A stretch of DNA of 51,102 bases from Flavobacteriales bacterium (GTDB taxonomy: Bacteria; Bacteroidota; Bacteroidia; Flavobacteriales_D; CAJJDF01): positions 1 through 51,102 of the forward strand of contig JAHDBM010000013.1 of NCBI GenBank assembly GCA_020630395.1, read 5' to 3'. The translations under genes were made by a program, and so were the position numbers. Positions 1,319-15,694 of this stretch are shown piece by piece (the first letter of the stretch is position 1; each line of letters opens with the position of its first letter). The notes below the pieces were generated by a model that saw only the letters and a program-made list of their open reading frames with translations, made no database searches and had not been told where the DNA came from.

Positions 1319-2470
1319 ATGCATAAAGAAACAGTAGATTTTATTAGGCAAACGTTTAAAGAACCATCTGATTTTATTCCTCTTCATGAACCTAGATTTG
1401 TTGGTAATGAAAGGAAATATGTACTAGATGCAATAGACTCTACTTTTGTTTCTTCTGTTGGTAAGTATGTAGACCAATTTGAACAAATGATGTGTGACAT
1501 TACAGGGGCTAAATATGCTGTAGCTATTGTAAATGGCACAAATGCTCTTCATCTTTCCTTAATTTTAGCAGGAGTGAAAGCAGGAGATGAAGTAATATCT
1601 CAATCATTAACTTTTATTGCTACTGCAAATGCTATTGCTTATTGTAATGCAACACCACACTTTGTAGATGTTGATAAAAAAACAATGGGACTCTCTCCTT
1701 CTCTACTAAAAAAACACTTACAAAACATAGCCCTAATTAAAGAGGGAGCTTGTTACAATAAATTAACAGGTAAAAAAATTGCTGCTTGCGTGCCTATGCA
1801 CACTTTTGGTTTACCCTTATACATTGATGAATTAATTGAAGTATGTAATGAATATCATATTCCTGTTATTGAGGATGCTGCTGAATCTTTAGGATCATAC
1901 TATAAAGATAAGCATACAGGTACATTTGGTCTATTGGGTACATTTAGTTTTAACGGTAATAAAACAGTCACTTCAGGAGGTGGAGGTGCTATTGTAACAA
2001 ACAATAAAGAACTTGCAAAACAAGCTAAACATCTTAGTACACAATCTAAAATACCCCACAAATGGGAATATAAGCACGATAATATTGGTTATAATTACAG
2101 AATGCCAAATATTAATGCTGCACTAGCATGTGCACAACTAGAACAACTCAATTATTACATTAAAAACAAACGAGATTTATCGGATAAATACTTTAATTTT
2201 TTTGAAAATCAAAAAAATGTAAAACTTATAAGAGAAGTTGAAAGTGGTAAAGCTAACTATTGGTTAAATGCAATTTTACTAAATGATAAAAAAGCTAGAG
2301 ATAATTTTTTAGAATATACCAACTCAAACGGAATAATGACAAGACCTATTTGGGGATTAATGAATAATTTAGAAATGTTTAAAGACTGTCCTAAAGCTGA
2401 TCTAAGTAATGCTAAATACTTTGAAGATAGAATTGTTAACATAACGAGTAGTGTAAGAATTAATGAATAA
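1319..2470 (+). CDS. legC: LegC-type PLP aminotransferase (DegT/DnrJ/EryC1/StrS family)
   Basis: This is a cytosolic sugar aminotransferase that would aminate C4 of the 4-keto-6-deoxy-GlcNAc nucleotide made by the preceding dehydratase. The fold-type I signature is complete: the cofactor-binding stretch VNGTNALHLS is at residues 71-80, EDAAES with the pyridine-contacting Asp186 is at 185-190, and the Schiff-base lysine is Lys215 within SFNGNKTVTSGGGGA. The C-terminus contains the NITSS stretch that resembles the end of LegC-type enzymes. Length 383 aa is usual for the family. The stop overlaps the start of the next gene by 8 bases, so translation is probably coupled. The alternative PseC role (pseudaminic acid) is less likely because the synthase and hydrolysing epimerase downstream are LegI/LegG (NeuB/NeuC) type. 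Confidence 0.85.
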   Translation: MHKETVDFIRQTFKEPSDFIPLHEPRFVGNERKYVLDAIDSTFVSSVGKYVDQFEQMMCDITGAKYAVAIVNGTNALHLSLILAGVKAGDEVISQSLTFIATANAIAYCNATPHFVDVDKKTMGLSPSLLKKHLQNIALIKEGACYNKLTGKKIAACVPMHTFGLPLYIDELIEVCNEYHIPVIEDAAESLGSYYKDKHTGTFGLLGTFSFNGNKTVTSGGGGAIVTNNKELAKQAKHLSTQSKIPHKWEYKHDNIGYNYRMPNINAALACAQLEQLNYYIKNKRDLSDKYFNFFENQKNVKLIREVESGKANYWLNAILLNDKKARDNFLEYTNSNGIMTRPIWGLMNNLEMFKDCPKADLSNAKYFEDRIVNITSSVRINE

Positions 2471-3101
2471 AAAAGAAATCATATTAATTGGTGGTGGTGG
2501 TCATTGTAAATCATGCATAGATGTTATAGAATCTACCAATGAATATTCAATTGCTGGGATTATTGATGATAAATCTAAAATTGGAAAAAAAGTTTTAGGA
2601 TATCCAATCATTGGTTGTGATGATGATTTAATATCATTAAACCGCAAGTATAAATTCGCATTAATTACTGTTGGTCAAATAAAATCTAATAAGGCACGAG
2701 TAAATATTTTTAAAAAATTAAAAGAGGCTAATTATACATTACCAATTATTATTGCTAATACAGCTATTGTATCTAAACATGCTACAATTAAAGAAGGCAC
2801 AATTATAATGCATCAAACAATTGTAAATGCTAATGCTAATATAGGTCATAATTGTATTATAAATTCAAAAGCTCTAATTGAGCATGATGTTAAAATTGGA
2901 GATCATTGTCATGTTGCTACACATGCTACCATAAATGGTAATGTAGTAGTTAATAATAATTGTTTTATTGGGTCTTGTTCTTGTATATCTAACGGTATTT
3001 CAATTAACAATAATACTACAATTGGCACATACACATTAGTTAATAAAAATATAAATATAGAAGGAACTTATATTGGTGTTCCAGCTAATAAAGTAAACTA
3101 A
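2463..3101 (+). CDS. NeuD/PglD-type sugar N-acetyltransferase (LegH role)
   Basis: This is a left-handed beta-helix acyltransferase of the NeuD/PglD/VioB group. The N-terminal nucleotide-sugar binding subdomain carries the hallmark LIGGGGHCKSCIDVI (residues about 7-21). From about residue 95 onward hexapeptide repeats dominate, with His at the position of the catalytic base in the GHNC and EHDVKIGDHCHV segments. In a legionaminic acid pathway the expected job is N-acetylation of the C4 amine made by LegC, using acetyl-CoA. O-acetylation of the finished sialic acid (classical NeuD) is the alternative. Its position directly after LegC and before LegI favours the pathway role. Length 212 aa is typical. 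The start overlaps the LegC stop by 8 bases and LegI follows without a gap. Confidence 0.8.
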   Translation: MNKKEIILIGGGGHCKSCIDVIESTNEYSIAGIIDDKSKIGKKVLGYPIIGCDDDLISLNRKYKFALITVGQIKSNKARVNIFKKLKEANYTLPIIIANTAIVSKHATIKEGTIIMHQTIVNANANIGHNCIINSKALIEHDVKIGDHCHVATHATINGNVVVNNNCFIGSCSCISNGISINNNTTIGTYTLVNKNINIEGTYIGVPANKVN

Positions 3102-4097
3102 ATGAATAAAACTTTAATTATAGCTGAAGCAGGAGTTAATCATAACGGTAGTATTGAATTAGCAAAAAAATTAGTAGATTCAGCTGTTGATGCTGGTGTA
3201 GATTATGTAAAGTTTCAAACTTTTAAAGCAGAACAACTCGTTAGCAAAAATGCAAAACAAGCTTCTTACCAAATAGAGAATACTGGAATTAAAGAGTCTC
3301 AATATCAAATGCTTAAAAAACTAGAGTTAACTCATGATAATCATCATATACTAATTGATTACTGTAAACAAAAAGGAGTTAAATTCTTATCAACAGCTTT
3401 TGATTTTGATAGTATTGATTTTTTAAAAGATAAGTTAGATTTTTATAAAATCCCATCAGGAGAAATCACAAACTATCCTTACTTAGTTAAAGTTGCCAAA
3501 CTTCAATTACCAATTGTTATGAGTACTGGAATGGCTAATCTGCAAGAAGTAAAAGATGCTTTAGCGGTTTTAACATCAAATGGAATAGATAAAAATGATG
3601 TAACTGTATTACATTGTAATACAGAGTATCCAACTCCAATGAAAGATGTAAATCTTTTAGCAATGAAAACCATTGAAAAAGAACTAGGAGTTGCTATTGG
3701 TTATTCAGATCATACCTTAGGCATTGAAATACCAATTGCAGCTGTTACGCTTGGTGCTAAAGTAATTGAAAAACATTTCACTTTAGATAAAACAATGGAA
3801 GGTCCTGATCATAAAGCTTCATTAGAGCCTCAAGAACTAAAAGCAATGGTTAAAGCTATTAGAACAATTGAAACTGCTTTGGGTAATGGTATAAAAAAAC
3901 CAAGTAAAAGTGAACAAAAAAATATTTCAGTTGCTCGAAAAAGTATAGTCGCATTAACCGATATTGCTAAAGGAGACATATTAACTGAAGATAACATAAC
4001 CGTTAAACGTCCTGGAACAGGTACTTCGCCTATGAAATGGGATCAAGTAATTGGATCTATAGCAGCTAAAAACTATAAAACTGACGAATTAATATGA
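3102..4097 (+). CDS. legI: Nonulosonic acid synthase, canonical NeuB family (LegI)
   Basis: This enzyme condenses phosphoenolpyruvate with a 6-carbon sugar (2,4-diacetamido-2,4,6-trideoxymannose for LegI) to give the 9-carbon acid. All NeuB marks are present: EAGVNHNG at residues 9-16, VKFQT at 36-40, PSGEITNYP at 118-126, MSTGMANL at 140-147, the metal-binding His204 in GYSDHT and His225 in VIEKHFTLD, and GPDH at 234-237. A C-terminal SAF (antifreeze-like) domain covers about 275-331 and includes KRPGTG, whose Arg303 sits at the position that reaches into the partner's active site in the NeuB dimer. Length 331 aa is usual. The stop overlaps the next start as ATGA. A second, divergent NeuB paralogue lies about 2 kb downstream. 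Confidence 0.92.
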   Translation: MNKTLIIAEAGVNHNGSIELAKKLVDSAVDAGVDYVKFQTFKAEQLVSKNAKQASYQIENTGIKESQYQMLKKLELTHDNHHILIDYCKQKGVKFLSTAFDFDSIDFLKDKLDFYKIPSGEITNYPYLVKVAKLQLPIVMSTGMANLQEVKDALAVLTSNGIDKNDVTVLHCNTEYPTPMKDVNLLAMKTIEKELGVAIGYSDHTLGIEIPIAAVTLGAKVIEKHFTLDKTMEGPDHKASLEPQELKAMVKAIRTIETALGNGIKKPSKSEQKNISVARKSIVALTDIAKGDILTEDNITVKRPGTGTSPMKWDQVIGSIAAKNYKTDELI

Positions 4098-5206
4098 TTA
4101 AAGTTGGAGTTTTAACAAGTTCAAGAGCTGATTTTGGTATTTACCTTCCTCTACTTTTAAAAATGCAAGAGGACTCTTTTTTTGAATTAGAAATAATTGC
4201 TTTTGGCACACATTTGTCAAAAAATCATGGGTATACCCTTTCAGAAATTGAATCATATAATTTAAACATCCCTCATAAATTAGATACTATACCTCATGAA
4301 GATTCACCTTTAGACATTTCAAAAAGTATGGGGGATACAACCACTATTTTTTCTGAATTTTGGAATGACAACAAATTTGACCTTGTATTTGCTTTAGGAG
4401 ATCGCTATGAAATGTTCTCAGCAGTTATTGCTGCTAGTCCCTTTAACATTAAAATTGCACATCTTCATGCTGGTGAGACTACTTTAGGTGCTATTGATAA
4501 TGCATATAGACATGGTATTTCTTTATTATCCAAAATTTTATTTGTATCTCATGAGGACTATAAAACAAGAGCCTATGAAATTGTAAATGAAGAAGCAAAT
4601 ATATTTAATGTTGGTGCCTTAAGTATTGATAATCTATCGAAAGTTAAGTTTTTATCAAAAAAAGATTTTCTCACTAAGTTTAATATTGACTTAAATATTC
4701 CAACCATACTATCAACATTTCATCCAGAAACAATTTCATTTGAAAAAAATGAAATATTCGCTAAAGAGTTAATGGATACTTTTAATGATTTAAGTGAACA
4801 GTATCAAATAGTCATAACTATGCCTAATAGTGATACCATGGGCAATAAAGTTCGAGAAATAATCATTAACCAAAGCAAAGGAAATAACAATATAAAACTA
4901 ATAGAATCATTTGGGATGCTAGGTTATTTATCTTGTATGAAACATTGTCAATTCATGCTAGGAAATACGTCTAGTGGTTTTATTGAAGCAAATTATTTCC
5001 CTAAGTATGTAATTAACATTGGGGACAGACAAAAAGGTAGAATAATTACGGAGAATATTATTTCAACCTCAATAGATAAAAAAAATATATTAGAAGCTGT
5101 TAATTTAATAGATAAAAAACCAACTTTAACTTACAAAGGAGTATACGGAGATGGAAATGCAGCTGATAAAATCATAAAAATTTTGAAAGAAGAATATGTA
5201 TCCTAA
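4094..5206 (+). CDS. legG: Hydrolysing nucleotide-GlcNAc 2-epimerase, NeuC family (LegG)
   Basis: This enzyme releases the nucleotide and inverts C2 to produce the mannose-configured substrate for LegI. It has the GT-B fold of the WecB/NeuC family. The N-terminus (KVGVLTSSRADFGIY) is the NeuC signature. The centre carries GDRYEMFSAV and HLHAGE, and the C-terminal half carries LGNTSSGFIEA (substrate pocket) and NIGDRQKGR. It ends with the typical GDGNAADKIIKIL helix. Length 370 aa fits. It is read out of LegI by an ATGA overlap and overlaps the following nucleotidyltransferase by 11 bases. In the deduced pathway it acts before LegI although it is encoded after it. Confidence 0.9.
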   Translation: MIKVGVLTSSRADFGIYLPLLLKMQEDSFFELEIIAFGTHLSKNHGYTLSEIESYNLNIPHKLDTIPHEDSPLDISKSMGDTTTIFSEFWNDNKFDLVFALGDRYEMFSAVIAASPFNIKIAHLHAGETTLGAIDNAYRHGISLLSKILFVSHEDYKTRAYEIVNEEANIFNVGALSIDNLSKVKFLSKKDFLTKFNIDLNIPTILSTFHPETISFEKNEIFAKELMDTFNDLSEQYQIVITMPNSDTMGNKVREIIINQSKGNNNIKLIESFGMLGYLSCMKHCQFMLGNTSSGFIEANYFPKYVINIGDRQKGRIITENIISTSIDKKNILEAVNLIDKKPTLTYKGVYGDGNAADKIIKILKEEYVS

Positions 5207-6230
5207 TATCATACAACATAAAGACACTATCAAACAAGCATTGACCAAAATTGATGAACTTGCTGGTCAAACACTTTTTATTGTTGATGAGAATGATAAA
5301 ATGATTGGAACACTAACGGATGGAGACATTAGAAGAGGCTTATTAAATGGAGCGAATTTAGATAGTCCAGTTGAAGAGTTCATGTCAAAAAAATTTAAAT
5401 TTTTAATTCAACATGAATTTTCATCAGGTTTAATTAAAGAATTGAAGAAAACCAATATTGTATATGTTCCTTTATTATCTTCAAATCACACCATAATTGA
5501 TGTTATCAACTTAGATAAGCTAGAATCTATACTCCCATTAGAAGCAATTATAATGGCTGGAGGTAAAGGAACTAGACTTAAACCTTTAACATTAAAAACA
5601 CCCAAACCTCTATTAAAAATAGGTGATAAACCAATTATTGAATACAACATAGATAGATTAATAAAAAACGGGGTCAAAAAGATCTACATTTCTGTTAATT
5701 ATCTAAAAGAACAAATTAAAGAATACTTTGGAGATGGTTCTAATAAAGGTATATCAATAGAGTATATTGAAGAAGAAATTATAACTGGAACTCTAGGTTC
5801 AGCAACATATATTGATAATTTCTCTACCAAAGATATACTCGTAATGAATTCAGATCTATTAACAGATATTGATTTTGAGCATCTTTATGAAACATATCTT
5901 AATCATAATGCAGAGATGGCAATAGCTACTGTACCATATAAGGTTAATATCCCATACGGAATAGTTGAAACAAAAAACGCTAAAGTAGTCTCATTAAAAG
6001 AAAAACCCACCTACACATATTATTCTAATGCAGGTATATATATTATTAATGCAGCTTGTATAAAAGAAATACCACAAAAAGCATTTTATAATGCTACTGA
6101 TTTAATTGAAAAATTAATCAATAATAATAGAAAGGTTGTTAGCTTCCCTATCCTAAACTATTGGCTAGATATAGGCAAACCTCTTGATTTTGAAAAAGCA
6201 CAAGAAGATATTAAACATTTAAAACTTTAA
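5196..6230 (+). CDS. ptmE: CBS-domain sugar-1-phosphate nucleotidyltransferase (PtmE-like)
   Basis: This two-domain protein has tandem CBS-type segments at the N-terminus (about 1-115, with FIVDENDKMIGTLTDGDIRRGL) and a sugar nucleotidyltransferase (residues about 118-344). The nucleotidyltransferase signature MAGGKGTRLKPLT is followed by the KPLLKIGDKPI stretch; the metal/nucleotide acidic residues lie in VMNSDLLTDID. The layout matches Campylobacter PtmE, a guanylyltransferase acting on glucosamine-1-phosphate to supply the GDP-sugar for legionaminic acid. The CBS pair could sense an adenine nucleotide. Specificity for GTP is inferred from gene content, not seen in the residues. It overlaps LegG by 11 bases; the next gene begins 6 bases after its stop. 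Confidence 0.82.
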   Translation: MYPNIIQHKDTIKQALTKIDELAGQTLFIVDENDKMIGTLTDGDIRRGLLNGANLDSPVEEFMSKKFKFLIQHEFSSGLIKELKKTNIVYVPLLSSNHTIIDVINLDKLESILPLEAIIMAGGKGTRLKPLTLKTPKPLLKIGDKPIIEYNIDRLIKNGVKKIYISVNYLKEQIKEYFGDGSNKGISIEYIEEEIITGTLGSATYIDNFSTKDILVMNSDLLTDIDFEHLYETYLNHNAEMAIATVPYKVNIPYGIVETKNAKVVSLKEKPTYTYYSNAGIYIINAACIKEIPQKAFYNATDLIEKLINNNRKVVSFPILNYWLDIGKPLDFEKAQEDIKHLKL

Positions 6231-6236
6231 AACATC

Positions 6237-7292
6237 ATGCTTCCTAACAATAAACCATATATAATAGGTGAAACTGCTTTTCATCATGAAGGAGATAAAA
6301 CTTTTTTAAAAGAACTTATATCTGAAGCTCAAAAATTAAAACTAGATGCCATCAAGTTTCATTTTACTGTCGATTTAGATGATTATATGATAGCTTCTCA
6401 TGAAGCAATTGATATTCTTAGACCATGGTGTTTAACTGAATCTGATTGGAATACTGTTTTAACTGATGTAGAAATTGATATTATTGGATTATGTAATGAT
6501 GTTAAATCAATTCAATATGCAATTAATAGCTCATTTAATATAGTCGCTATTGAAATTCATGCTACTGGTTTAAATGATATTTTTTTGCTTGATGAGGCTT
6601 CTAAATTTGATAAAACAATAATTCTTGGAACTGGTGGTTCTACTCTTGACGAAATTGATTTTGCTATTAATTACTTGAAAGAAAAAGGTAAAGCAGATAT
6701 ATTTTTAATGCATGGATTTCAAAACTATCCTACCGATTACAAGGATGTGAAGCTTGATCGTATGAATCAGCTTAATAAATTATTCAATGTGCCTGTTGGA
6801 TATGCTGATCACACTGATCCTCTAAACGAACATAATGAATACATTAGTTGCTTAGGTATTGCTAATGGGCACAATGTAATAGAAAAGCACTTTACACATA
6901 AATATGGTGAAAAACGTATAGATTCTCAAGCTGCAATAAGTATCAATCAAATGAAAAAAGTAAAAGAAATAGCTTCAATCAATTTTGATATTATTAGCAA
7001 AAATAACGCTTTAAGTTTAACCCCTGCTGAGAAAAAATATGGAAACACTGGCCCAATGAAAAAAGCTATTGTAGCTAGAAATAAAATAAATAAGGGAGAA
7101 ATTATTTCCATTGATAATATCGCTTTTAAAAGAACCAATAAAAGTAGCAGTATAAAGCAAATTGAATTAGCAAAAATTTTAAATAATAAAGCTAATATTA
7201 CTATCCAAAAGGATGAAATTATTGACCTTTCTAATGTGGATTACGAATTTGCTACAACTGATATCTCTCAATTCACAAACAATTCAAAATGA
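6237..7292 (+). CDS. Divergent second NeuB-family synthase with SAF domain
   Basis: This 351 aa protein has the same architecture as LegI (TIM barrel plus C-terminal SAF domain at about 270-330) but differs strongly in sequence. It keeps the two metal-binding His (His192 in GYADHT, His218 in VIEKHFTH), an acidic residue at the start of strand 1 (Glu12 in GETAFHHEG) and the SAF KR pair (Lys298-Arg299). The PEP- and sugar-facing loops are changed. PSGEITNYP has no counterpart; the region reads IEIHATGLND. STGM is replaced by GTGGSTLDE, and GPDHKAS by RIDSQAA, keeping only Asp229. It is therefore probably an active aldolase-type condensing enzyme with another sugar or keto-acid substrate. It overlaps the cytidylyltransferase by 4 bases, so the two form a translational pair. 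Its product is not known to me. Confidence 0.75.
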   Translation: MLPNNKPYIIGETAFHHEGDKTFLKELISEAQKLKLDAIKFHFTVDLDDYMIASHEAIDILRPWCLTESDWNTVLTDVEIDIIGLCNDVKSIQYAINSSFNIVAIEIHATGLNDIFLLDEASKFDKTIILGTGGSTLDEIDFAINYLKEKGKADIFLMHGFQNYPTDYKDVKLDRMNQLNKLFNVPVGYADHTDPLNEHNEYISCLGIANGHNVIEKHFTHKYGEKRIDSQAAISINQMKKVKEIASINFDIISKNNALSLTPAEKKYGNTGPMKKAIVARNKINKGEIISIDNIAFKRTNKSSSIKQIELAKILNNKANITIQKDEIIDLSNVDYEFATTDISQFTNNSK

Positions 7293-8059
7293 GCAAAATA
7301 GGATTTATTATTACTGGTAGAATGAAATCTACTCGTTTAAAAAAGAAATTAACGCTAACCATTTTAGACAGAGAAGTTATAACTCACATGATTGATAGGG
7401 CAAAGCTCTATTTTAAAAATTCTGAAATTGTTATAGCCACATCAAATAATACTCAAGATGATATACTAGAACAAATTGCCACAAGAGAAAGTATAAAATT
7501 TTTTAGAGGACATGAAGATGATGTTGTGCTAAGATTATATAATGCTGCGAAAGAAAATAATTTTGAATATTTTATCAACATAACTGCGGATTGTCCTTTA
7601 TTTGGATTTGATTATACTGATGAAATTTATAATTTATTGCATAATAACAATGCAGACTTAGTAACTTCTTTAGATTTGCCACATGGCATTTTTACATATG
7701 GTATTAAAACAACAGCATTTAGAAAAGTAATCGAATTAAAGAAAACTTCAGATACAGAAGTGTGGGGAGATTACTTTTATAACAATCCAGATATCTTTAA
7801 TGTTATTAAACTTAATGTTCCAAAATCTAAAATCAGGCCAGATTATAGATTAACATTAGATTATCCTGAAGATTTTGAATTCTTTAAAGCAGTTTTCAAT
7901 CATTTTGGAAAAGATACATATAAAGTAACTTCAGATAATATTATACATTTTCTTGATGAAAATCCTAGTATTGTAAATATAAACAAAGATTGTAAAGCTC
8001 TTTATGCTCAAAGATGGGACGCTCAAAGAGTTACTAATATTGAAAAAAATAACTTTTAG
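7289..8059 (+). CDS. SpsF-type cytidylyltransferase
   Basis: This 256 aa nucleotidyltransferase belongs to the CMP-sialate/KDO synthetase superfamily but looks like SpsF rather than NeuA/LegF. The N-terminus is ITGRMKSTRLKKKL, in the style of SpsF (ARMGSTRLPGK), where NeuA has a PARGGSKR-type loop. ITADCPLF at about 98-105 holds the metal-binding Asp, and RLTLDYPED near 189-197 is the SpsF C-terminal hallmark. It would make a CMP-activated sugar acid, presumably from the product of the NeuB paralogue encoded just upstream (ATGA overlap) and/or from legionaminic acid. No separate canonical LegF is visible in the window. Confidence is high in the superfamily and low in the substrate. Confidence 0.75.
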   Translation: MSKIGFIITGRMKSTRLKKKLTLTILDREVITHMIDRAKLYFKNSEIVIATSNNTQDDILEQIATRESIKFFRGHEDDVVLRLYNAAKENNFEYFINITADCPLFGFDYTDEIYNLLHNNNADLVTSLDLPHGIFTYGIKTTAFRKVIELKKTSDTEVWGDYFYNNPDIFNVIKLNVPKSKIRPDYRLTLDYPEDFEFFKAVFNHFGKDTYKVTSDNIIHFLDENPSIVNINKDCKALYAQRWDAQRVTNIEKNNF

Positions 8060-8076
8060 CTCATTAAACTAATTTA

Positions 8077-9048
8077 ATGCTTAATCAATTTCAACATATT
8101 ACAATAGGAATTATTGGACTTGGATCAATAGGTCTAAGACATGCCAATGAACTTATAAATCTTGGAGTAAAAAACATATATGCTTTACGAACTAATAAAG
8201 GGTCAAAAGAAATTCCCGAAACAATAATCAATCATATCATAAATATATATGATGAAAAAGATTTTCTTGAGTTGGCTATTGATGGATATATTATCTCTAA
8301 TCCTACAAGCTTACATATTGAAGCAATAAATTTAGTTTCAAAACAAAACAAACCTATATTCATTGAAAAACCATTATGTGAAAACCTTATCGATATTAAT
8401 AAACTCGATAATATTTCTAGTGAATTAATTCAAATTGGTTTTTGCTTAAGATTTAATAGTTTATTTAAAAAAGTTAAAACCTTATTAGATGATAACGCTA
8501 TTGGTGATGTATATCATAGTAGGATAAATGTTGGGCAATATTTACCTTCTTGGCACCCTTATACTGATTATCGAACTGAGTATTTTTCTCAAAAAAAATT
8601 AGGAGGTGGAGCTCTAAGAACATTGTCTCACGAGATAGATCTCGGCTTTTATTTTTTTGGAAAACCAACAAAAGCATTCGCATTAAGTGGTCAAATTTCA
8701 AATCTAGAAATTGATGTTGATGATTACGCTTTGTTACTTTTATCATATCATAATAAGCATACATCAAGAATTGAAATAGACTTCCTTAATAAGAAAAAAG
8801 AACGAAAAGGTATAATTTTTGGCACAAAAGGTGATTTACACTACAATCTTTTTGATAAAACCATTTTCATTTATGATATTAACGGAGAAGAAATTAAAAA
8901 CATAACGATTCAGGATAATAATATGTATAACGAACAAATGCAATCATTCTTAACACTTATTACCTCAAATGGTAAAACAAAAGAAGGAAGCTCTTGGGAT
9001 GAAAACATACATATCATGAAAATAATTGAAAATGAAAAACCTATTTGA
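8077..9048 (+). CDS. Gfo/Idh/MocA-family oxidoreductase (PtmF-like)
   Basis: This NAD(P)-dependent sugar oxidoreductase is 323 aa. The N-terminal Rossmann motif GLGSIGLRHANEL (residues about 15-27) is followed by the family EKP motif in PIFIEKPLCENL. A C-terminal alpha/beta substrate domain contains LGGGALRTLSHEIDLGFYFFG, whose His is the usual catalytic/substrate His of the family. In the Campylobacter legionaminic acid locus a protein of this family (PtmF) works with the SDR PtmA in supplying glucosamine phosphate for GDP-GlcNAc. The same pair stands here next to a PtmE-like gene. The match of role is from gene context. Its end overlaps the SDR gene that follows. Confidence 0.72.
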   Translation: MLNQFQHITIGIIGLGSIGLRHANELINLGVKNIYALRTNKGSKEIPETIINHIINIYDEKDFLELAIDGYIISNPTSLHIEAINLVSKQNKPIFIEKPLCENLIDINKLDNISSELIQIGFCLRFNSLFKKVKTLLDDNAIGDVYHSRINVGQYLPSWHPYTDYRTEYFSQKKLGGGALRTLSHEIDLGFYFFGKPTKAFALSGQISNLEIDVDDYALLLLSYHNKHTSRIEIDFLNKKKERKGIIFGTKGDLHYNLFDKTIFIYDINGEEIKNITIQDNNMYNEQMQSFLTLITSNGKTKEGSSWDENIHIMKIIENEKPI

Positions 9049-9838
9049 TTTAAAAAATAAGATTATTATAGTTTTTGGTGGTTCTGGAATACTTGGAAAG
9101 GAATTCACTAAAGCTCTTGTTCAACATAATGCAACAGTTATAAGTTGTGATCTAAACATACTAGATAAAGACTTGCAAATTGATGGAGTTGATTATAGGA
9201 CACTAGATGTTTCTAATGAAGATGACTTAATTGCATTTAAGGATGAAGTAATAGCAAAACACAACCGAATTGATGTCATTATAAATTCATTAACGGCTAA
9301 GTACAATGATTTTTATCTTCCATTTGATCAAGTATCTACTGAGGGATGGGAAGTAGGTTTAAAAGGAAATCTAACTCTTCCTTTTATGATCTGTAAAACC
9401 TTTATTAATCAGCTTTGTAAACAGAAATCTGGTTCAATTATTAACATTAGTTCTGTTTATGGATTGGTTGGAAATGATCAAAGTATATACGAGGGCTCTA
9501 ACCTTCATGAAATTTATGTAAAGGATAGTCCAGATATTAAACAAATATATTCTCATGGAGTATATAATGCTGCAAAAGGTGGATTAAACAATTTTACTAG
9601 ATATTTAGCATCCTATTACGGGAAATTTAACATTCGAGTAAATACAATTTCGCCCGGAGGAATAGAGTATCCTTCTGAAAATGAAACATTCTTAAAAAAA
9701 TATGGAGCAAAAACTCCTTTAGGACGTAAAGCAAAGAAAGAAGAAATAAATGGAGCTGTAATTTTCCTTGCATCTGATGCGTCAAGTTATGTTACTGGAC
9801 ACAATTTAGTTGTAGATGGAGGTTTCACTGCTTGGTAA
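9032..9838 (+). CDS. ptmA: SDR-family oxidoreductase (PtmA-like)
   Basis: This classical short-chain dehydrogenase is 268 aa. The cofactor motif GGSGILGKEF lies at residues about 16-25, DVSNEDDL follows, and the active site is formed by NISSVYG and YNAAKGGLNNFTRYLA (Tyr-x3-Lys). RVNTISPGGI and ITGH-like VTGHNLVVDGGF at the C-terminus complete the pattern. A longer frame begins with TTG at 9026; the ATG at 9032 is preferred because it gives the normal SDR N-terminus. It overlaps the upstream oxidoreductase by 17 bases. In Campylobacter the homologous PtmA acts with PtmF early in GDP-sugar supply; the pairing here suggests the same, although the reaction cannot be read from sequence. Confidence 0.78.
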   Translation: MKNLFDLKNKIIIVFGGSGILGKEFTKALVQHNATVISCDLNILDKDLQIDGVDYRTLDVSNEDDLIAFKDEVIAKHNRIDVIINSLTAKYNDFYLPFDQVSTEGWEVGLKGNLTLPFMICKTFINQLCKQKSGSIINISSVYGLVGNDQSIYEGSNLHEIYVKDSPDIKQIYSHGVYNAAKGGLNNFTRYLASYYGKFNIRVNTISPGGIEYPSENETFLKKYGAKTPLGRKAKKEEINGAVIFLASDASSYVTGHNLVVDGGFTAW

Positions 9839-9849
9839 TATATAATTAT

Positions 9850-10278
9850 ATGATTTACGATAAACTAAATAATATTGAACGTTACAATGTTTTAAAACAA
9901 ATCGCGAAATTCGATTTTTCAAAATATCAAAAAGGTAAATTTGAAATTAATGGTAAAGATTTTTTTGGCATTGGTTTAGAATATAATACTAAAAATGAAA
10001 GTGAATGTTTATGGGAAGCACATAAACGATATTTAGATATTCATGTTCTTTTAGAAGGAGAGGAAATCATACATGTAACAGACATTAAAAACATGACTGT
10101 TTCTAAAGAACATGATAACGAACAAGATTATGCCTTGTTCACTGGAACTAAAGAACAAGCCTTTGAACTGAAAAAAGGAGACTTTCTAGTACTTTATCCT
10201 AATGAAGTTCATAAAACAGCTGTTAAATTAAATAATGAGTCTACTATCAAAAAAATAGTATTCAAAATACAATTATAA
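9850..10278 (+). CDS. YhcH/YjgK/YiaL (DUF386) family protein
   Basis: This small cupin-like protein is 142 aa from the chosen start. The family signature is EAHKRYLDIHVLLEGEE, followed by DFLVLYPNEVHKTAV near the C-terminus. The His and Glu residues in these two segments are the likely metal ligands. E. coli YhcH (NanQ) is known as a metalloprotein anomerase that opens the N-acetylneuraminate ring for the aldolase, so this protein may act on a nonulosonate or its precursor. A longer frame begins with TTG at 9832 inside the SDR gene; the ATG at 9850 is preferred because family members begin with a short MI-D-KL-NI stretch exactly there. It lies in a biosynthetic operon with no NanA-type aldolase in view, which is unusual. 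Confidence 0.8.
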   Translation: MIYDKLNNIERYNVLKQIAKFDFSKYQKGKFEINGKDFFGIGLEYNTKNESECLWEAHKRYLDIHVLLEGEEIIHVTDIKNMTVSKEHDNEQDYALFTGTKEQAFELKKGDFLVLYPNEVHKTAVKLNNESTIKKIVFKIQL

Positions 10279-10286
10279 ATATTATT

Positions 10287-11183
10287 ATGGAGACTAATTG
10301 CCATGTATGTAATAGTGTTGATACCGAATTATTATATAAAAACCTTAAAGATTTAACATTTAAAACTACCAAGGAAACGTTTGATTTATATTCTTGTAAT
10401 AATTGTGATGCAAAATTTCAACATCCGCTAATGCCAGAAGATAAAGTTGGGCAGTATTACCCAGATAGTTATGACCCATTCAATAATATAAAAAAAACAA
10501 TTATACCGATTAACAACAAGAAAAATCCTCAAAGTGTTTATCTATCGTATTTACATTCAAAGCATAATAAAAATGATGAGTTTTCATTGATTGATGTTGG
10601 CTGTGGTGGTGGTAATTTTTTAAATAGTGTAAATCACTATTTTCCTAATGCTAAATTATTTGGTGTAGATGTATCAGAAATTGCAATTGAAAACCTAAAA
10701 AAAAATAACATTGATGGTACTTGTAATTCACTTTATGACTTTTCTACAAAGATTAAATTTGATTATATTACAGCATCACAAGTATTAGAGCACCTTAATA
10801 GACCTCATGATTTTATAAAAAAAATTACTGAAATAGCTAAACCCAATGCTACATTTATGATAGATGTTCCAGCAAGTGATGGTTATGCTGCAAAAAAGTA
10901 TAAAGAAAACTGGGTACATTGGGACTTACCAAGACATAGTATAATCTACAGCAAAAAAAGTTTAACACACTTATTGAAAGACAACTTTACAACTATAAAT
11001 CTTAATTTTGCTGGTACATATACTGCTATTAGAAGTAGTAAAAAAATAAGTAAAAATAAAGACATATATACCCCTAATTTTATTGATAACTATGTGATCA
11101 AATATGCTTCTCCAATACTTAAAATATTCAATCATCTTTATACCGATAAAATATATTGGATTGGAAAAATGAAAAACAACTAG
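10287..11183 (+). CDS. SAM-dependent methyltransferase with N-terminal zinc ribbon
   Basis: This 298 aa class I methyltransferase has a CHVC zinc-ribbon half at residues 5-8 and a CNNC half at about 37-40. The SAM-binding glycine motif LIDVGCGGGNFL is at about 103-114, and a post-motif acidic residue lies in LFGVDVSE. QVLEHLNRPHDF is typical of Methyltransf_11/23 proteins found in surface polysaccharide loci. It could methylate a sugar of the glycan or, by analogy with zinc-ribbon C-methyltransferases, a nucleotide sugar. The substrate is unknown. It follows the YhcH gene after 8 bases and precedes the HAD gene by 3 bases, so it is part of the same operon. Confidence 0.75.
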   Translation: METNCHVCNSVDTELLYKNLKDLTFKTTKETFDLYSCNNCDAKFQHPLMPEDKVGQYYPDSYDPFNNIKKTIIPINNKKNPQSVYLSYLHSKHNKNDEFSLIDVGCGGGNFLNSVNHYFPNAKLFGVDVSEIAIENLKKNNIDGTCNSLYDFSTKIKFDYITASQVLEHLNRPHDFIKKITEIAKPNATFMIDVPASDGYAAKKYKENWVHWDLPRHSIIYSKKSLTHLLKDNFTTINLNFAGTYTAIRSSKKISKNKDIYTPNFIDNYVIKYASPILKIFNHLYTDKIYWIGKMKNN

Positions 11184-14818: not shown

Positions 14819-15694
14819 TTATATTTTTTTAAACTGATCTAAATAAGATTGATCTGAATAATTTGTTATTTCTACATTATATTTTTTAGCATAGTCTGCA
14901 ACTACATCAAATGAGAAAAAATAATTGTGAAAAATTAAAAAGATTTCGGATGTTTTAAAGGTTATTCCTTTTTCTTTGTTTTTAAACCAAGGCTGATAAG
15001 ATTCTACTAATTCATTATTGTAAAAATGTCTAGTTCTTATTTGTAATTGATTTTCCTTACTTACTCGTATATCTTCGTGGTGGCTTAAATCGATACCTGC
15101 AATTATAATATCCTTATACCCCATATACATACAATTCATTAAAGCTGGAACTGCTACAGTAGCAGGTCTTGGCATTCCCCATTTTTTTTTCATTAAACTT
15201 AAAAGAAAAGAATTATTTCCATTAAAATTAACATTGTTATAATAGTTAATATTAATCAACTCATTATTAAGATTATTTTCTATTATTATTTTATTAAAAT
15301 CCTTTTTAAATGAAAAAGGAATAAAAATATCAATCGCCCAATCAACACCATATATTTTTTTATAAAACTCAGGTATTCTCTTATCATTCTTATATCCATT
15401 GTATTTAAACAATGGATCACAAATTATATAATAATTAGGTTTTAACTCCTCAAATAAATTAGAGTTACAAAAAAAATTTGTAACCATTATATTGTTGGGC
15501 ATTCCAACAGTTTTAATCTTCTCTAACGCTTTAGTTAAAGAAGGTCCATTAGCAAAGAAAGCAATTTTATCCCCATTGCTAGCTAATGGAACTTTAACTC
15601 TTTTTCTTGATAACACTAAGGCTTTAAACAATGAAACTGAAACACTAATTAAAAGTTTCATGAAGTCTCTTACTGATTCGAAAAATTTGATCAT
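14819..15694 (-). CDS. DUF115/CST-I-like protein, candidate nonulosonate transferase
   Basis: This 291 aa protein has a hydrophobic N-terminal stretch (about 10-30) followed by a compact domain. The motif FFANGPSL (46-53) resembles the nucleotide-binding GNGPSL of CST-I/II sialyltransferases (GT42) and of the related DUF115 proteins that include Maf-type flagellin glycosyltransferases. Other points that line up by eye with CstII are Asn73 in VTNFF, Arg176 in PRPATVA and AGIDLSHH at 199-206 after MGYKDIII. A CMP-nonulosonate as donor would fit the operon encoded just beyond the gap, but this is inference. It is the last gene of the minus-strand glycan operon, 10 bases after the GT4 gene. A membrane anchor plus cytosolic catalytic domain is likely. 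Confidence 0.6.
   Translation of the reverse strand: MIKFFESVRDFMKLLISVSVSLFKALVLSRKRVKVPLASNGDKIAFFANGPSLTKALEKIKTVGMPNNIMVTNFFCNSNLFEELKPNYYIICDPLFKYNGYKNDKRIPEFYKKIYGVDWAIDIFIPFSFKKDFNKIIIENNLNNELININYYNNVNFNGNNSFLLSLMKKKWGMPRPATVAVPALMNCMYMGYKDIIIAGIDLSHHEDIRVSKENQLQIRTRHFYNNELVESYQPWFKNKEKGITFKTSEIFLIFHNYFFSFDVVADYAKKYNVEITNYSDQSYLDQFKKI

Follow-up and report, generated by a model that had tools for sequence, protein, structure and literature searches.

A divergent NeuB paralogue co-inherited with an SpsF-type cytidylyltransferase in the LegF slot of legionaminic acid operons

Canonical nonulosonate synthases of the NeuB, LegI, and PseI type (TIGR03569 and TIGR03586; NmNeuB, 1xuu; CjPseI, 8h2c) combine a TIM barrel with a SAF domain. 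The region around PEP and C1 is the part conserved across the Neu, Leg, and Pse synthases, and the PEP neighbours in NmNeuB are positions 110, 129, 131, 132, 182, and 184 (PMC7371886). In the legionaminic acid (Leg) clusters of Campylobacter and Plesiomonas, CMP activation is assigned to LegF, a single NeuA-family gene, and the gene order in Plesiomonas is PtmA, LegF, PtmF, PtmE (PMC4481668). In Bacillus subtilis, the NeuB homologue SpsE is the sole synthase of the pathway and SpsF is taken as the CMP-Leg enzyme; spsF is required for Leg on the spore surface and not for making Leg, as expected of an activating enzyme (PMC7439481). An SpsF-type domain has also been proposed to replace the absent NeuA in a Pse cluster of Vibrio B9-25K2, where it forms a bifunctional protein with an aldo-keto reductase (PMC7371886). 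Regarding sialic acid catabolism, YhcH opens Neu5Ac and the linear form is then used by the aldolase NanA, so that open-chain nonulosonate reaches an enzyme of the C3–C4 bond (PMC8141875). The NeuB fold, the SpsF family, and the replacement of NeuA by SpsF are known already. In the open-licence PMC literature searched, no description was found of a NeuB–SpsF pair such as the present one, in which a NeuB paralogue inherited together with SpsF has its PEP pocket rebuilt and the pair takes the position of LegF.

The stretch analysed (51,102 nucleotides, hereafter the window) is contig C11 of a Bacteroidota genome of 3.53 Mb, and it starts with a co-oriented operon on the forward strand. The operon is composed of genes encoding a LegB-type 4,6-dehydratase (128–1315; Polysacc_synt_2), the LegC aminotransferase (1319–2470; TIGR04181, 550 bits), a NeuD/LegH-type acetyltransferase (2463–3101; TIGR03570, above cut-off), LegI (3102–4097), the LegG hydrolysing 2-epimerase (4094–5206; TIGR03568, above cut-off), and a PtmE-type protein with CBS and nucleotidyltransferase domains (5196–6230). 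PtmE is the last gene ahead of the divergent NeuB-fold protein with a SAF domain, which we call NeuB2 (6237–7292; 351 aa), and the SpsF-type cytidylyltransferase (7289–8059; 256 aa). These are followed by a Gfo/Idh/MocA oxidoreductase in a PtmF-like position (8077–9048), an SDR oxidoreductase in a PtmA-like position (9026–9838), and a YhcH/DUF386 protein of the nonulosonate anomerase or 'openase' family (9832–10278; PF04074, 124 bits; TIGR00022, 116 bits, above cut-off), which falls under the cut-off of the YhcH/NanQ anomerase equivalog (85 vs 160 bits). The MocA and SDR genes were considered as part of the NeuB2–SpsF module and rejected, being present in some NeuB2 operons and absent from many. 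The genome holds two NeuBs and the operon a single hexose precursor route. The canonical LegI reported in a preliminary description of the locus was confirmed (TIGR03569, 510 bits, above cut-off; PEP pocket complete), and it is the operon's only protein with an intact PEP-condensing site, judged by sequence.

When compared to the described systems, the window shares with B. subtilis a NeuB homologue accompanied by SpsF, but SpsF has a non-canonical NeuB as its partner here, and LegI is encoded separately. The pair resembles LegF of Campylobacter and Plesiomonas in operon position and predicted CMP activation, although a NeuB-like protein plus SpsF stand in place of one NeuA-family gene. The partner of SpsF is an aldo-keto reductase in Vibrio B9-25K2 and a NeuB paralogue in the window. 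In contrast to the catabolic YhcH/NanA system, YhcH belongs here to a biosynthetic operon, and NeuB2 is unrelated to NanA.

The NeuB2 and SpsF open reading frames overlap by 4 bp through the shared letters ATGA, as described previously. NeuB2, identified from its Pfam matches (NeuB, 109 bits; SAF, 28 bits), its residues, and its AlphaFold model, is full-length and intact, shares 27% identity with LegI of its own operon, and lies far under the NCBIfam cut-offs (148 vs 400 bits for NeuB, 105 vs 340 bits for PseI). The model (pLDDT 90) has a good NeuB-like fold whose best PDB matches are NmNeuB, C. violaceum SpsE, and PseI; a sequence search of the PDB returned no close solved relative. Plasmid and phage collections contained ordinary NeuBs only, at <30% identity, and no NeuB2. 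The motifs PSGEITN, STGM, and GPDH, which the preliminary description found to be missing, read HATGLND, GTGG, and RIDS, and the metal-binding His residues and the SAF Arg are retained as it stated (His192, His218, Arg299). Two features escaped it: the GPDH motif retains its Asp (Asp229, invariant), and the stretch that carries the hexose-contact loop has lost about 16 aa.

Pocket positions were mapped by sequence alignment in 25 NeuB2 sequences and are given in NmNeuB numbering. The canonical NeuBs compared retain the PEP region, whereas NeuB2 carries Leu or Met at 110, Glu at 129 (25/25), His at 131 (25/25), Ala or Ser at 132 (still Ser in 14 of the 25), Gly at 182 (25/25), and Gln at 184 (25/25). 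The replacement of Lys129 by Glu belongs to the core NeuB2 family; Asp occupies this position in locus L064 and in the divergent copy of genome G302. Further changes concern position 55 (His), Ser154 (Gly), and Ser213 (Ala/Thr). Glu25, Lys53, Asp214, His215, Glu234, Lys235, His236, and Asp247 are invariant in all 25 sequences, including the two metal-binding His residues and the catalytic Glu25, and the SAF Arg (Arg314) is found in 22 of them. NeuB2 thus shares with the canonical synthases, in addition to the fold, the two metal His residues, Glu25, Lys53, Asp247, and the SAF Arg. In a divergent subgroup (L027 5160–6155, L028 4626–5651, and L064 7157–8143) Met or Leu replaces the SAF Arg. Between Lys53 and position 110, the segment in which the loop contacting hexose C4–C6 sits, NeuB2 has 45 residues vs 61 in LegI. 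In the window protein, the rebuilt PEP half-pocket is composed of Leu85, Glu106, His108, Gly131, Gly160, Gln162, and Ala190, and the retained metal/aldehyde end of Glu12, Lys40, His192, Glu216, His218, Asp229, and the SAF Arg299.

The new pocket residues Glu106, His108, and Gln162 are themselves invariant from archaea to Bacteroidota, and dN/dS of NeuB2, for the pairs permitting an estimate, is 0.06–0.15, similar to that of SpsF. The invariance of the replacement residues and the low dN/dS mark the site as rebuilt and not decayed. With nearly all PEP-contact positions replaced and the metal/aldehyde end invariant, ordinary PEP condensation is unlikely, and NeuB2 is probably not a PEP-dependent synthase.

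The scan of the genome collection yielded 26 NeuB2 loci, among them two near-duplicates and one looser relative (L030). Cultured carriers are Glaciecola amylolytica, Halpernia humi, Fodinibius roseus, and Maribellus maritimus. The carriers as a whole, which extend over Bacteroidota, Balneolota, Gammaproteobacteria, Nitrospirota, and archaea, include Flavobacteriia, Bacteroidales, Balneolota, Glaciecola, Methyloprofundus, Nitrospirota, Omnitrophota, Atribacterota, Woesearchaeota, and Methanosarcinales. In every locus with a long enough contig, NeuB2 adjoins SpsF (just over 1 kb apart in L009) and a canonical NeuB is also present. Among 395 Bacteroidota genomes, NeuB2 scored 286–515 bits in five (at least 422 in four, 286 in one) and at most 157 in the rest; the matching SpsF subtype reached at least 340 bits in exactly the four genomes with the higher NeuB2 scores and at most 175 in the others. 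In the fifth genome, G302, NeuB2 and SpsF are adjacent and both divergent. Further SpsF searches brought in another NeuB2–SpsF pair, L091, from the family of G188, as well as two SpsFs of intermediate type (L107 and L108, in the class of G007), of which L107 has a NeuB2-like SAF remnant at the contig edge. The maximum-likelihood tree places the NeuB2 sequences in a single clade (28 rows, 100/99), separate from the one that contains every canonical NeuB (49 rows, 99/93), and NeuB2 groups with no known synthase. Partner groups in the NeuB and SpsF trees correspond broadly. The preliminary description had suggested surveying genomes for co-occurrence of the divergent synthase with SpsF; the survey indicates a real, co-inherited functional module. 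A looser relative in G194 (L070 5429–7254) has a partly altered PEP site (Asp110, Gly132, Asp134, Gly154) and is the sole NeuB of its cluster, beside SpsF; it is a possible intermediate, perhaps still active as a synthase, so that functional synthases may exist within the wider clade.

The position of the pair was examined against twelve Leg operons without NeuB2 in which LegI shares 50% identity or more with the window's. A LegF-type gene was found in 8 of these 12 and in none of 28 NeuB2 loci (Fisher p = 6e-6), and in six of the 8 it directly follows PtmE in the fetched stretches. For example, L114 has the order PtmE-LegF-MocA-SDR vs PtmE-NeuB2-SpsF-MocA-SDR in the window. In L112, the NeuA/LegF-type gene neighbours a second NeuB and possibly serves a different sugar. 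LegF and the NeuB2–SpsF pair are mutually exclusive within the sample. The presence of NeuB2 is scattered over the LegI tree, forcing at least four changes, which implies repeated exchange of the cassette against a shared Leg backbone. Taken from gene content and order, the cassette very probably replaces LegF. Its placement is well supported; its chemistry is what we infer.

Regarding the activating enzyme, the census of the window's genome (CYTIDYLYLTRANSFERASE) identified two CTP_transf_3 proteins, SpsF (7289–8059) and a protein on contig C93 recognised as KdsB by its sequence and a pdxJ-like neighbour, and no NeuA or LegF, a point absent from the preliminary description, as was the YhcH gene of the operon. 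The assignment of SpsF relies on this census, its Pfam CTP_transf_3 match (55 bits vs a cut-off of 22.6), its motifs, and its model. The RxKSxRLxxK substrate loop is invariant in 19 sequences, as are the other motifs, and the model (pLDDT 92) best matches 6oew, a Leptospira structure (TM about 0.8), and then KdsB. The window SpsF gave no match to the PseF model, and neither an RGGSKGIPxKN-type motif nor a PseF–LegF match was present in any NeuB2 locus. The pattern of KdsB plus SpsF is repeated in several other NeuB2 genomes, and in Balneola (L008) SpsF is the sole CTP_transf_3 protein. Since the genome lacks LegF, SpsF is the only enzyme able to activate the LegI product. An SpsF from the Leg operon of L108 (10276–11133; genome G556) is nested in the NeuB2-linked SpsF clade (95/81, long branch), and NeuB2 is absent from that entire genome. 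L108 is a natural loss of NeuB2, usable as a control; NeuB2 is therefore not indispensable for SpsF, and its role as an indispensable SpsF subunit was downgraded.

Divergent NeuB and SpsF also occur as fusion proteins of 560–620 aa in nonulosonate operons. Some include SAF (L065 4206–6002; L069 4266–6071; L109 7562–9364, of L092/L109; L110 8925–10784, of L098/L110), and others lack it (L066 4307–5986; L067 5790–7514). Their NeuB parts share with NeuB2 Gly182, usually Gln184, and Ala/Thr213. The operons carry PseB/PseC-like or other nonulosonate genes, labels that reflect sequence resemblance only, and no LegF-type gene. A canonical NeuB lies in the same stretch in L065, L066, L067, L069, and L110; none is seen in the L109 stretch, where the contig breaks off, although that genome encodes another NeuB elsewhere. 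In L068 (4813–6612), L075 (3250–5220), and L078 (3850–5646) the fusion order is reversed, with SpsF ahead of a canonical NeuB; Ser replaces the SAF Arg in these proteins, which form a separate synthase-plus-activator type.

YhcH is encoded in or beside the operon in 14 of 21 NeuB2 loci with enough flank and in 0 of 12 Leg operons without NeuB2 (p = 1.6e-4), a strong association in raw counts; YhcH is absent from the other 7 of the 21 and from the fusion loci. Phylogenetically independent contrasts gave 2–3 of 4 (p = 0.25), too few for significance. According to a whole-genome Pfam search, YhcH is encoded elsewhere in five of the genomes without NeuB2 and is absent from seven, and the operon copy is the only one in the window's genome. 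The presence of YhcH in a biosynthetic operon is most easily explained by an enzyme of that operon using open-chain nonulosonate as its substrate, and the one candidate with no other assigned step is NeuB2. Alternatively, YhcH could help SpsF through faster anomer exchange.

We propose, at a probability of roughly 40%, that NeuB2–SpsF is a swap-in for LegF in which NeuB2 would work on the open-chain product of LegI ahead of SpsF. LegI would make legionaminic acid from PEP and the LegG product, and YhcH, where present, would open the ring of this sugar. NeuB2 would then bind the open-chain sugar acid by its retained metal site and, needing no PEP, act at the C3–C4 end; the most plausible reaction would be a retro-aldol/aldol epimerisation of C4 in which the new residues Glu106 and His108 serve as acid and base. 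SpsF would trap the product as a CMP-sugar. The metal of NeuB enzymes activates the oxygen that becomes O4. C4 epimerisation fits because the metal end is retained and a Glu/His pair is new. That NeuB2 catalyses some change of the LegI product has, in our view, slightly less than an even chance, and that it is specifically a C4 epimerase is doubtful. More tentatively, NeuB2 may be a PEP-independent, metal-dependent nonulosonate epimerase or other C3–C4 enzyme, with the cassette yielding a CMP-nonulosonate unlike that of LegF operons, e.g., 4-epi-legionaminate; such an enzyme might, just as tentatively, have evolved inside the PEP-dependent NeuB/KDO8PS/DAHPS fold. 4-epi-Leg occurs in nature (PMC5595891); literature searches found no gene for it, and a C4-epimer product is undocumented for any NeuB2 carrier.

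By annotation, NeuB2–SpsF clusters seemingly have two nonulosonate synthase genes and are predicted to make ordinary legionaminic acid. If the cassette makes an epimer or another variant, the surface-sugar predictions for many environmental, host-associated, and archaeal lineages would be wrong, and the way in which nature produces a Leg isomer would become directly testable. A NeuB2 that reshapes the sugar before activation would represent a new step in bacterial surface-sugar synthesis and would show the synthase fold losing PEP and gaining a new reaction.

The main rival is a pure binding or channelling role. NeuB2 may conceivably be a non-catalytic former synthase that serves SpsF, or LegI via SAF, by binding nonulosonate, channelling it, or exerting feedback control, a possibility on the unlikely side that draws on the fusion to SpsF in relatives, the 4-bp overlap, the adjacency in nearly all loci, the broadly matching partner groups of NeuB and SpsF, and the loss of the conserved PEP site. 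However, the invariance of the polar pocket residues, including the new Glu106, His108, and Gln162, exceeds the needs of a binding scaffold, and the relatives in L066 and L067 lack the SAF domain through which LegI would be contacted. The SpsF of the same clade in L108 works against this role as well, suggesting that SpsF can do without NeuB2, which contributes something extra.

The preliminary description regarded the pair as a module that makes and activates another sugar acid, possibly from a different keto-acid or with a different chain length. The module itself held up, NeuB2 being co-inherited with SpsF and outside every known synthase group, but a second sugar acid beside a complete Leg pathway did not, given the missing LegF, the one hexose precursor, and the filling of the LegF slot by the pair. 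In its general form, NeuB2 would be a second synthase with another donor or acceptor, and SpsF would activate its product while also activating or ignoring that of LegI. The NeuB fold, metal site, and SAF Arg are retained, and in L070 the looser relative is the only NeuB of its cluster; nevertheless, this is unlikely, as NeuB2 has other residues at the named PEP contacts (with a reversal from Lys129 to Glu) and a shortened segment around the hexose C4–C6 loop, and the operon has a single hexose precursor route. It would also leave LegI orphaned, because there is no second cytidylyltransferase. The replaced PEP half-pocket makes it less likely that chain length alone was altered. A new final product is possible through action on the LegI product, as in the proposed swap-in for LegF, and not through parallel condensation. 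Lastly, a decaying duplicate without function, which the lost catalytic motifs might suggest, is highly improbable, since uniform replacement residues across many phyla and the low dN/dS point to purifying selection.

Two other genes of the window were observed. A methyltransferase gene (10287–11183) weakly matches a pseudaminic-acid-associated methylase model (34 vs 112 bits), and nonulosonate methylation is possible. On the reverse strand, the gene at 14819–15694 has a borderline match to PF01973 (MptE-like; 33.2 vs 34.6 bits), a family presumably related to the flagellin Maf transferases, and is a possible surface-sugar gene.
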